Shown in pieces: positions 23,736 through 27,132 of a stretch of 39,766 nt of DNA; the stretch's first letter is position 1; the number at the start of each line of letters is the position of its first letter. Under the pieces are notes generated by a model. It was not told where the DNA came from. It was given only the letters and a program-made list of their open reading frames with translations, and made no database searches. The translations under genes were made by a program, and so were the position numbers. Source of the stretch: a virus; the IMG/VR virus record IMGVR_UViG_3300043446_001923, positions 1-39,766 of that record; one strand, written 5' to 3'.

Positions 23736-24051
23736 AGGTGTCGTTTACTTCAAATGCGTTGCAACCCACAATCCAGCCAGCTTTGTCACGAACGAGTTTG
23801 CTTGGCGACATGAGATCAGGGCGATCTGGCAGAGCCAAACGAACCACACTCGGGACGATGAACATGGTGTCTTTGCGGGGTTTCTCTGGGATGTTGGTGA
23901 CTGACTGCACTTGAGCCACCAGCAGCGGTGTTCCCTCAATTTCGCCGACCTTCTCGTAGTGATAGGTGGCCTGAGAGATGTATCCAGAAGGCTCAATCGT
24001 AGAGCCGTTCGGAAGAATAACTGGATTCTTCGTGAGATTGATTACTTTCAT
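23725..24051 (-). CDS. Conserved phage protein of unknown function
   Basis: 108 residues, mostly beta. The pattern KVINLTKNPVILPNGSTIEP, a GTPLLVAQVQSVTNIPEKPR middle and the ending KLVRDKAGWIVGCNAFEV match a small phage family with INLTPHxI...PPSGxxARV...LPxPxxGTxYIVSxLVA...RxDLxxP...VRDxxGxIIGC. I know this family from Bacteroides and other phages; its function is unknown. The start (24051) is embedded in the 3' end of the N-terminal helicase gene (59-base overlap). The IVPSVV segment fits the conserved YIVS strand. Confidence 0.75.
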   Translation of the reverse strand: MKVINLTKNPVILPNGSTIEPSGYISQATYHYEKVGEIEGTPLLVAQVQSVTNIPEKPRKDTMFIVPSVVRLALPDRPDLMSPSKLVRDKAGWIVGCNAFEVNDTYVS

Positions 24052-24751
24052 TTAGGATGTTGGCGATGATGTTGAGGGCCAGCATGGTTTTGCCGGACTT
24101 GGTTTCTCCTCCGATGACAAGGAAATCTCCGAATCGAATGGGTGTCAAGTTGTCGAGCTTGGAATAACCAGTGCGGACTCGCATGGCTGTGTCGTCCCCT
24201 GTCTCGTACCGTTGCAGTGCATTCATTAGGATGGCGTTGGTGTCCTGCACTCGTGCTGGAGCCATCTCCCGGTGCAGGGCATCAATCGCCATGTACGTTT
24301 GCGACAGCAACTCTCCGGTGTCTTGGCTGATGTCCTGAATATCGTGCTGAAGCTGTGCTGCAATCGCCAGTAGCGCCCGCCGTTTGGCGTGTCTGCGAAC
24401 AATCGTCAGCATGTCTGGCAATGCCGACAGAACAGCGCCATTGGTGCATACATCAGACACTTGATAAAACTCAGCACTCGGCATTCGTTCACGCACCTTC
24501 TCAAACAAGACCCTGATGTCGCAGGACGCACCCTTGGCAACCTGATTGGTGATTGACTCCACAACCGCTTTGGAGAATGGGTCCAGAATGTCAGCAGTGC
24601 TGAAGCGTGACTCGGTTGTTTTGGCGACAAACTCGTTTGGATAGTTTGCCGCGATACACGCCAAGCCAACCTCGGCCTCGGTAGCCTTTGGAACAAGATC
24701 CAGAGGCACTTCAACCCGTGACTTACCACCCTTCCGATACTTGGTTTCCAT
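23993..24751 (-). CDS. dnaB: Replicative helicase DnaB, N-terminal half with Walker A (split gene)
   Basis: 252 residues. Residues about 22-165 form the DnaB N-terminal helical domain and linker. TGYSKLDNLTPIRFGDF (194-210) and Walker A GGETKSGKT (214-222) open the RecA domain. Homology stops after ALNIIANIL (225-233). The last 19 residues are a Ser/Glu-rich tail unlike DnaB and the frame then ends. The rest of the RecA domain is a second gene at 22246-21659. The break falls between the P-loop helix and the next core strand. No intein residues are seen at either edge. It follows the 178-aa replication protein with a 29-base overlap. Confidence 0.88.
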   Translation of the reverse strand: METKYRKGGKSRVEVPLDLVPKATEAEVGLACIAANYPNEFVAKTTESRFSTADILDPFSKAVVESITNQVAKGASCDIRVLFEKVRERMPSAEFYQVSDVCTNGAVLSALPDMLTIVRRHAKRRALLAIAAQLQHDIQDISQDTGELLSQTYMAIDALHREMAPARVQDTNAILMNALQRYETGDDTAMRVRTGYSKLDNLTPIRFGDFLVIGGETKSGKTMLALNIIANILNESNQSHEESSYSSERLYD

Positions 24752-25677: not shown

Positions 25678-26693
25678 TCCGCCTCCTTAAGTTCTTTCAT
25701 AAGTGTTCTAAATGCTCGTTCTGCCGTTGCCGGAACTACTCCGTTTCCCAGCAAGCGCAGTTCGTCGGTTCGATTATCGCACAACTCGGCATAGTCCAAC
25801 CCACCGGCAGGCCCATCAGCGTTTCTACCCAGCGTGGATTGAGTTTGCCGCTCTGCGTCCGCTCCACCATCGGCGTGAGCTCGCTGTACTCCCGCTCCTC
25901 GTTCCCGCGTCCACTCTTGTGATCCCGCGCCGTAGGCGTTGCCCAACTCGCCTGTGTCCCAAGGTGCAGCATCGATCCCGGCTTGCAGTTCGTTGGCCCC
26001 GGATTGCGCGAGTCTGCGCTTCGGGGCGTCACCCACGACTCTAGGCGGCTCCCATGCGTGCTGTGGTTCTCTAGGGCGGCTGGGCCAGAGATTTCCATCG
26101 ATGCAATTCTCCGCAGGATTCTCCCGCCTTTGTCCAGCTTTGCAAGAAGGCTCCAATTTGTCCCTTGATCCTGCGTTTCTGAAGCAGTCGGAGTGGGCCA
26201 AGATGAACACTCGCTTTCGCTGATGAGGCGCTCTGACTTCAGCCGCGCTGAATATGCCCCACGTCGTTCTGTAACCCATTCGTCCCAAGTCGTGCATGAC
26301 GTCACGCAACCCAAGGGTAATGTGTCCTTCGACGTTCTCGAAGAAACAGAGTCTTGGTTGCAAAACTGAAATTCCGTTTGCGATGTAAGGCCAGAGGTGG
26401 CGCTCATCGTCGGCTCCAAGACGTTTTCCAGCGGCGCTAAATGGTTGGCATGGGTAGCCGCCAGAGAGGATGTCCACCAAGCCTCGAAAAGACCCCCAAG
26501 GAAAGGATTTGAGATCAGTCCAGATCGGAGCCGGGTCAAGGTGCCCGCTTTCCATTCTCGCAAGTAACAACTCGCACGCGAACGCTTCGATCTCCGAATA
26601 AGCGACAGTTCGCAAGCTCGGGATGCATCGGCGGAGTCCAAGGTCAATGCCTCCGTATCCGCTGCAAAGGCTAATGTGCGTGGGATTATCCAC
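25674..26693 (-). CDS. C5 cytosine DNA methyltransferase
   Basis: 339 residues. Motif I is SLCSGYGGIDLG (8-19), motif IV GGYPCQPFSAAG with catalytic Cys82 (78-89), motif VI FENVEGH (118-124), motif VIII QRKRVFILAHS (158-168) and motif X LLGNGVVPATAERAF (314-328). It transfers a methyl group to C5 of cytosine. With no cognate nuclease it probably shields phage DNA from host restriction. The region between 165 and 300 contains repeated (A/G)(D/N)A elements and is the target-recognition part. That same DNA is open in a second frame that shows its own conserved pattern (see findings). It overlaps both neighbours by 4-8 bases. Confidence 0.92.
   Translation of the reverse strand: MDNPTHISLCSGYGGIDLGLRRCIPSLRTVAYSEIEAFACELLLARMESGHLDPAPIWTDLKSFPWGSFRGLVDILSGGYPCQPFSAAGKRLGADDERHLWPYIANGISVLQPRLCFFENVEGHITLGLRDVMHDLGRMGYRTTWGIFSAAEVRAPHQRKRVFILAHSDCFRNAGSRDKLEPSCKAGQRRENPAENCIDGNLWPSRPREPQHAWEPPRVVGDAPKRRLAQSGANELQAGIDAAPWDTGELGNAYGAGSQEWTRERGAGVQRAHADGGADAERQTQSTLGRNADGPAGGLDYAELCDNRTDELRLLGNGVVPATAERAFRTLMKELKEAE
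25736..26206 (-). other. Second open frame inside the methyltransferase gene (WPTPTA-type)
   Basis: In the alternate frame, three Trp/Thr/Pro units occur: WPTPTASE (from 26200), WVTPRSAD and WATPTARDHKSG. They are followed by GKLNPRWVETLMGLPVGWT and a Cys-containing tail that stops at 25736. This is the pattern of a recurrent phage protein family (W-x-TP-x-A-x-D repeats plus LNPRWVExLMGxPxGWT). The first in-frame Met within the conserved part is at 26098. Upstream of 26206 the frame is merely the shifted methyltransferase. Whether it is translated, by internal start or frameshift, is unknown. Confidence 0.4.
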
Positions 26694-27132
26694 ATTGGTC
26701 CTCCTTCAACGCCTCAACGGCAATCGCCTGCTCAAGTTTCCCTCTGCAAAATCCACAGCAATTCCCTTTTGCGATTTCAGACAAAGCCGACTCAAGCCGC
26801 TTGATGCGCTTGTTGGCCCACCACATCGCCCCGCAGGCAACGTGCATCGAATGCCGGATGTCGTCCGCCTGATGATCGGGCAGGCGCTCCTTCCACCACT
26901 CGCGGTCTTTGGCGAGCATGTGCAGATCTTGCCACGCCTCACCCAAAGACAGGTGCAGATCCAATCGGTTCCATAAATCTACAGCCTGCTCTTCCGTGTC
27001 CACCTCAGGTCCACGAGCCCAGCACCTATTGCATTTGATGCTGTGCATTCCGCTGACCCATGTACAGATGTTTAGATCTGTGCATTCACAGAATGGACAA
27101 CTTGCAATCCACCACTTGTTGACTTCGCTCAT
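26686..27132 (-). CDS. Lar-like zinc protein with helical extension
   Basis: 148 residues from ATG 27132, which overlaps the preceding stop (ATGA). An N-terminal zinc module (CPFCECTDLNICTWVSG, IKCNRCWARGPEVDTEEQAV, LWNRLD) has the Lar pattern CPFC...C..C..GP....A...WN. A long helical part follows (MLAKDREWWKERLPDHQADD, RIKRLESALSEIAKG) with a second CCGFC near the end. Compared with the 70-aa Lar-like protein at 25677 it is twice as long. It may alleviate type I restriction or regulate the methyltransferase that follows. The helical extension is unassigned. Confidence 0.72.
   Translation of the reverse strand: MSEVNKWWIASCPFCECTDLNICTWVSGMHSIKCNRCWARGPEVDTEEQAVDLWNRLDLHLSLGEAWQDLHMLAKDREWWKERLPDHQADDIRHSMHVACGAMWWANKRIKRLESALSEIAKGNCCGFCRGKLEQAIAVEALKEDQCG

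Follow-up and report, generated by a model that had tools for sequence, protein, structure and literature searches.

Same-strand genes seldom overlap over long distances with selection acting in both frames, and most known cases come from small viruses. The locus described here raises the question of whether a phage gene for a C5-cytosine methyltransferase is such a case and, if so, what its second frame encodes. It is located in the window, i.e., the complete stretch of 39,766 nucleotides of viral DNA that was analyzed (IMG/VR record IMGVR_UViG_3300043446_001923). The methyltransferase open reading frame, alpha, shares nearly its entire length with a second one, beta, which lies in the +1 frame of alpha, starts 2 nt ahead of it and stops 62 nt before its end (Table 1). 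An earlier reading made from the sequence alone (the sequence-only reading) had placed a second frame over positions 25736-26206; it is indeed present there, but extends over the whole methyltransferase reading frame. All of the peptides quoted from it (WPTPTASE, WVTPRSAD, WATPTARDHKSG, and LNPRWVETLMGLPVGWT) are found in beta, and one and the same set of bases yields GRNADGPAGGLD in alpha and TLMGLPVGWT in beta. The described juxtaposition of alpha ADA and NAY segments with TPTA holds for NAY, which faces ATPTA, but not for ADA, which faces another stretch.

Table 1. Features of the dual-frame methyltransferase locus; positions are those of the window.
Feature	Position	Strand	Basis
Alpha, C5-cytosine methyltransferase ORF, GTG start, 339 aa	25674..26693	-	Matches to PF00145 and phrog_363
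Alpha motifs I-VIII, catalytic domain	26190..26681	-	M.HhaI/M.HaeIII by profile and fold; pLDDT mostly 80-95
Alpha WPSRPREPQHAWEPPRVV, sole alpha-conserved stretch between VIII and X	26034..26087	-	NN/SN 0.38; invariant columns W203-R218
Alpha GRNADGPAGGLD, passive shadow of beta motif IX	25794..25829	-	No alpha-frame constraint; pLDDT below 50
Alpha motif X and C-terminal helix (LRLLGNGVVPATAERAF...)	25689..25772	-	NN/SN 0.17, alpha frame only; pLDDT about 95
Beta, +1-frame ORF of alpha, ATG start, 319 aa, W-x-TP modules and motif IX	25736..26695	-	ORF; phrog_1008; openness in homologs
Dual-constraint segment, alpha 8-62 with beta N-terminal domain	26508..26672	-	Alpha NN/SN 0.20-0.32, beta NN/NS 0.29-0.42; four-fold divergence 0.134
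Beta module 1 (WPTPTASETQDQG...), putative target-recognition cassette	26036..26200	-	Between VIII and IX; cassette analysis
Beta module 2 (WVTPRSADSRNPG...)	25946..26035	-	Common to 7 loci, varying module orders
Beta module 3 (WATPTARDHKSGRG...)	25844..25945	-	Common to 16 loci, always last module
Beta motif IX, KLNPRWVETLMGLPVGWT	25793..25846	-	Beta NN/NS 0.28 vs. alpha frame 1.57; hhalign to single-chain motif IX, E 3.2e-6
Shine-Dalgarno-like AAGGAGG, 4 nt before beta ATG, 6 nt before alpha GTG	26700..26706	-	Sequence
Twin start ATGTG, beta ATG and alpha GTG sharing one base	26691..26695	-	Sequence; homologs

Homologous loci were retrieved with the alpha protein alone, and the beta frame was therefore unselected for most of them. 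In 70 of 71 unique homologs, no stop interrupts the +1 frame anywhere in the overlap, and the complete set contains a single +1 stop, whereas within-gene permutation of synonymous codons, which preserves codon usage and protein, predicts 4.4 for every gene. In the half encoding motifs I-VIII, no +1 stop occurs where 242 are expected. The lone exception, Acinetobacter phage ABMM1 (L002), has one +1 stop, and its beta is open from an ATG 4 nt behind the alpha ATG. The +2 frame of the same genes served as a control and contains 13.8 stops per gene (13.5 expected). That the test is sound is also evident from 28 relatives in which all motifs reside on a single chain: they contain 227 +1 stops, close to the 260 expected and on average 8 per gene, and none of them is stop-free. 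The alpha frame is likewise devoid of stops across the beta module region (0 vs. 343 expected in 70 genes). The second frame is thus real and selected, as the sequence-only reading had supposed. An intact methyltransferase with a broken second frame, named there as counter-evidence, was not encountered in the clade of the window. The opposite case, an intact beta with an alpha frame that is closed after motif VIII, occurs in other arrangements: L190, L202, and L208, in which motif X is located in beta, each have 4-10 alpha-frame stops after motif VIII. At two loci (L178 and L238), a frame change shifts both reading frames together, which points to sequencing errors or decayed copies.

Where along the gene does selection act on which frame? 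Changes were counted by their effect in each frame, and the resulting ratios, which are not independent since the pairs are related and which partly reflect codon position, indicate constraint in both frames for alpha residues 8-62 (Table 1), in alpha alone for residues about 68-127, and again mildly in beta (0.56-0.75) for residues 128-200. The alpha frame is constrained at residues 203-227 (WPSRPREPQHAWEPPRVV), ratios are near 1 for both frames at residues 218-287, and at residues 278-302, opposite motif IX, beta is strongly constrained while alpha is not, which identifies GRNADGPAGGLD of alpha as a passive imprint of the beta motif. Past the beta stop, constraint is confined to alpha, and gene segments outside beta give a phantom beta-frame ratio of about 1.0-1.1. 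Four-fold divergence, determined at alpha sites with a conserved amino acid in 26 independent pairs, amounts to 0.134, 0.218, 0.129, 0.146, and 0.028 in successive segments, with the minimum opposite the WVETLMGLPVGWT segment (motif IX), and to 0.381 behind the beta stop. Substitution rates in the homologs therefore bear out selection in both frames, acting jointly at alpha residues 8-62, on beta alone at motif IX, and on alpha alone at motif X.

Alpha carries the C5-methyltransferase motifs I-VIII and X, including the PCQ catalytic loop, ENV, and the QRxR signature, and P81-C82-Q83, E119-N120-V121, and H157-Q158-R159-K160-R161 are invariant in its homologs. It matches phrog_363 (E 1.8e-56), and residues 6-169 only are covered by PF00145 (E 6.9e-30, profile search). 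Motif IX is absent from alpha, whose frame is unconstrained at this position, and is found in beta instead; motif IX and a recognition region on the same chain, as in PF00145, are therefore not a property of alpha. The part behind motif VIII had been taken for normal target-recognition and motif X sequence. This is correct for motif X (LGNGVVP), which is conserved in alpha and for which only the alpha frame shows constraint, but not for the remainder, which over most of its length is near-neutral (nonsynonymous/synonymous 0.9-1.6, except at residues 203-227) and modeled as disordered. The alpha model, for which the large domain of M.HhaI and M.HaeIII is the fold match, is good at motifs I-VIII and X and disordered at residues 179-200 and 222-314. 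Judged by its substitution pattern, the alpha frame past motif VIII is mostly a passenger, a stop-free linker whose sequence is set by the beta frame. Amid this otherwise unconstrained stretch, WPSRPREPQHAWEPPRVV is conserved in alpha.

Beta residues 75-301 match positions 39-279 of the 329 positions of phrog_1008 (DNA methyltransferase; E 4e-19). PHROG 1008 is listed as a free-standing family for which the overlap with alpha is not recorded, and its end corresponds to motif X, a motif that the window has in alpha. The C-terminal end of beta is formed by KLNPRWVETLMGLPVGWT, whereas its N-terminal domain (about residues 10-64, encoded at 26508-26672 on the minus strand) is constrained and has no relative of known function among those found. 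A profile search of the PDB yielded no solved structure similar to beta, a Pfam search with beta chains carrying motifs IX and X gave no match, and the AlphaFold model of beta alone is poor (mean pLDDT 52), as may be expected for half an enzyme with a shallow alignment.

When viral contigs were scanned for DNA encoding the beta motif IX, 80 loci were obtained; a methyltransferase N-domain is detectable at 72 of them and lies in the -1 frame at 70, in line with the earlier suggestion of a real overlapping protein and with its assignment to a recurrent phage family. With the related EWMMG form as the target, 28 loci were found to have the N-domain in the -1 frame and 41 to have N-domain and motif in one reading frame, and the latter contain motifs I-VIII, modules or a linker, motif IX and, where detected, motif X. 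In Mycobacterium phage Estave1, for example, the single chain gp75 consists of motifs I-VIII, LPTP modules, ...EWMMGWPAGWVT (IX), and LRIIGNGVVPQQ (X), while in Wile (gp75/gp74) and Gordonia phage Float294 (gp62/gp61), motifs I-VIII are split from modules, IX, and X. Motif X thus resides on alpha or beta depending on the lineage, but in the DNA always follows motif IX. A profile of the single-chain family matches alpha over motifs I-VIII (E 1.2e-54) and beta at motif IX (hhalign probability 88 over only 25 columns); it is collinear with M.HhaI, significantly so for motifs I-VIII, with positions 271-307 (IX-X) not significant by themselves. Since single-chain enzymes hold LPTP modules and motif IX in frame between motifs VIII and X, the W-x-TP family is a normal C-terminal half of such enzymes, and the idea that the WPTPTA family arose at this locus by overprinting had to be abandoned. 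Beta most likely carries the target-recognition part that is missing from alpha and belongs to the same enzyme. The single-chain and differently split relatives also offer access to the origin of the dual-frame arrangement.

How, then, are two frames translated? In the window, the start context reads AAGGAGG-acca-ATGTG, with a single AAGGAGG for both starts. In 70 homologs, the beta ATG precedes the alpha start by 2 nt (ATGTG, 38 cases), by 5 nt where alpha starts with ATG (27 cases), or by 8 or 11 nt (5 cases). Elsewhere in the family, the twins have the form [A/G/T]TGAATG, or beta starts internally around alpha codon 50-60, in many cases behind AAGGAG or AGGAG. Such twin and internal starts argue for two independently started proteins. 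We consider it improbable that programmed frameshifting generates one fused enzyme by initiation at the alpha start, a +1 shift after motif VIII for modules and motif IX, and a shift back for motif X. The parts are indeed collinear in the single-chain relatives and the direction of the split is always the same, but two opposite shifts would be required, beta possesses its own ATG adjoining the alpha start or an internal start with a Shine-Dalgarno-like sequence, and the first half of beta, which need not be open in such a scheme, is constrained and completely free of stops. In addition, the window has no fitting slippery heptamer at the frame junction near motif VIII; the only candidates are GGGAAAC, close to the stop of beta, and a run of GGGGG at 26497. 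Lack of slippery sites together with the twin and internal starts also led us to reject the suggestion, made in the sequence-only reading, that the second frame is a frameshift product.

A shade less probable still is a beta that was overprinted de novo and has a function unrelated to methylation, for example as an inhibitor of host defence. The constrained N-terminal domain without known relative would be compatible with this. However, single-chain enzymes have motifs I-VIII and X joined in frame to the part that forms the C-terminal half of beta, motif X can occupy either chain, and the motif IX that alpha lacks is present in beta. Finally, we dismiss the notion that alpha is the only protein and the second frame an artefact of G+C content and conserved alpha codons, because chance opening of a frame in these moderately G+C-rich genes (0.50-0.62), even in view of long open runs in the +1 frame of single-chain relatives, is contradicted by the permutation and the single-chain control, and also by synonymous-site constraint, the absence of alpha constraint opposite motif IX, and the twin ATG codons.

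Beta proteins contain 1-6 W-x-TP modules, mostly of 20-60 residues, and the 228 modules from 65 loci sort into 100 groups. Modules 2 and 3 of the window recur with different neighbors, at alpha identities of 0.64 to 0.96. Such a mosaic is the pattern that exchangeable recognition units would give, and it is from their position and mosaic behavior that we infer a role of the modules in recognition.

Dual openness, selection in both frames, twin starts, the distribution of motifs, single-chain and split relatives, and module mosaics, all of which are read from sequence, make it very probable that the locus specifies a dual-coded, two-subunit DNA cytosine-5 methyltransferase with alpha as the catalytic and beta as the recognition subunit, a function that we infer. 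One ribosome-binding site would serve two out-of-frame overlapping starts (ATGTG), with initiation at ATG leading to beta and at GTG to alpha. Alpha would provide the catalytic (large) domain with motifs I-VIII and X, and beta the small domain, made up of motif IX and a series of exchangeable W-x-TP recognition modules, such that the two frames would divide the enzyme at the boundary between large and small domain. The two chains would form a single enzyme for the methylation of phage DNA, probably as a protection against host restriction and with a specificity set by the modules. It is likely that this extends to a large phage gene family, in which catalytic and recognition subunits are superimposed over nearly their full length (about 290-460 codons) with twin out-of-frame starts at one ribosome-binding site, in which cassettes are shuffled although they must be stop-free in alpha and meaningful in beta, and in which the N-terminal part of beta is a domain of its own that took shape within the catalytic frame.

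Relatives of beta are encoded on at least 540 stretches of viral contigs, and cultured carriers include phages of Salmonella, Klebsiella, Acinetobacter, and Lacticaseibacillus. Annotation usually gives just one member of the pair: Salmonella phage S9-5, Klebsiella phage BUCT711, Lacticaseibacillus phage R23.9, Synechococcus phage S-H1, and others have both frames and one product listed over the overlap. In phage S9-5 (L290, 907-2231), the dual-coded cytosine methyltransferase is overlapped at its start by a gene that carries an adenine methylase annotation. Bacterial relatives of the window version stem from Verrucomicrobiota, e.g., Geminisphaera colitermitum TAV2, which hints at the host of the window phage. 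E. coli genomes contain only four close copies of the Salmonella-phage version, one of them broken, which is too few for a population test; in the prophage copy of E. coli PCP07014 (L423, 2001-2762), a single site creates a stop in both frames. The +1 frame of a methyltransferase on Enterobacter hormaechei plasmid pTO42E (L420, 2327-3352) contains WPTPTASD and the LNPALPRWLMGFPISW motif. Elsewhere in the window (23993-24751, minus strand), a DnaB-like helicase reading frame of 252 aa matches only positions 189-379 of a 621-position profile, which implies that its C-terminal part is missing or in another frame.

With hundreds of viral contigs in which two frames would each specify half of the same enzyme, questions about overlapping genes (their birth, translation from twin starts, and evolutionary limits) gain an assayable readout, DNA methylation, and a recurrent phage protein family would find its explanation. 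Parts of this arrangement have precedents. The multispecific C5-methyltransferases of Bacillus phages SPR, phi3T, and SPbeta have tandem short recognition units between motifs VIII and IX that are exchanged between phages. The window locus resembles them in arrangement, although the Bacillus enzymes are single chains in one frame. The same parts in the same order are also found in the Estave1 gp75 type, which consists of one chain in one frame and has +1 stops. For M.EcoHK31I, the gene for the small chain reportedly lies in another frame of the large gene, with the small chain starting inside it, and the second chain of the window locus is likewise encoded in another frame of the first gene. 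In the passage of PMC3404938 that cites Lee 1995, M.EcoHK31I (YGGCCR) is described as consisting of a large chain with motifs I-VIII and X and a small polypeptide with motif IX alone, both of which are needed. Compared by description, motifs are distributed in the same way in the window, whereas beta differs in spanning nearly all of alpha from a twin start, in its several exchangeable modules, and in its occurrence in many phages. M.AquI, another two-polypeptide C5-methyltransferase, is split in the variable region and has motifs IX-X on the second chain (PMC3404938). L190, L202, L208, Wile, and Float294 show this type of split; the window locus differs from it in its superimposed genes and in having motif X on alpha. 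Within the literature searched, with most subscription journals outside its coverage, we found no paper on dual-frame methyltransferases of phages. Two-polypeptide C5-methyltransferases as such are already known; their full superposition, the twin starts, the breadth of distribution, and the shuffling of cassettes appear to be new.
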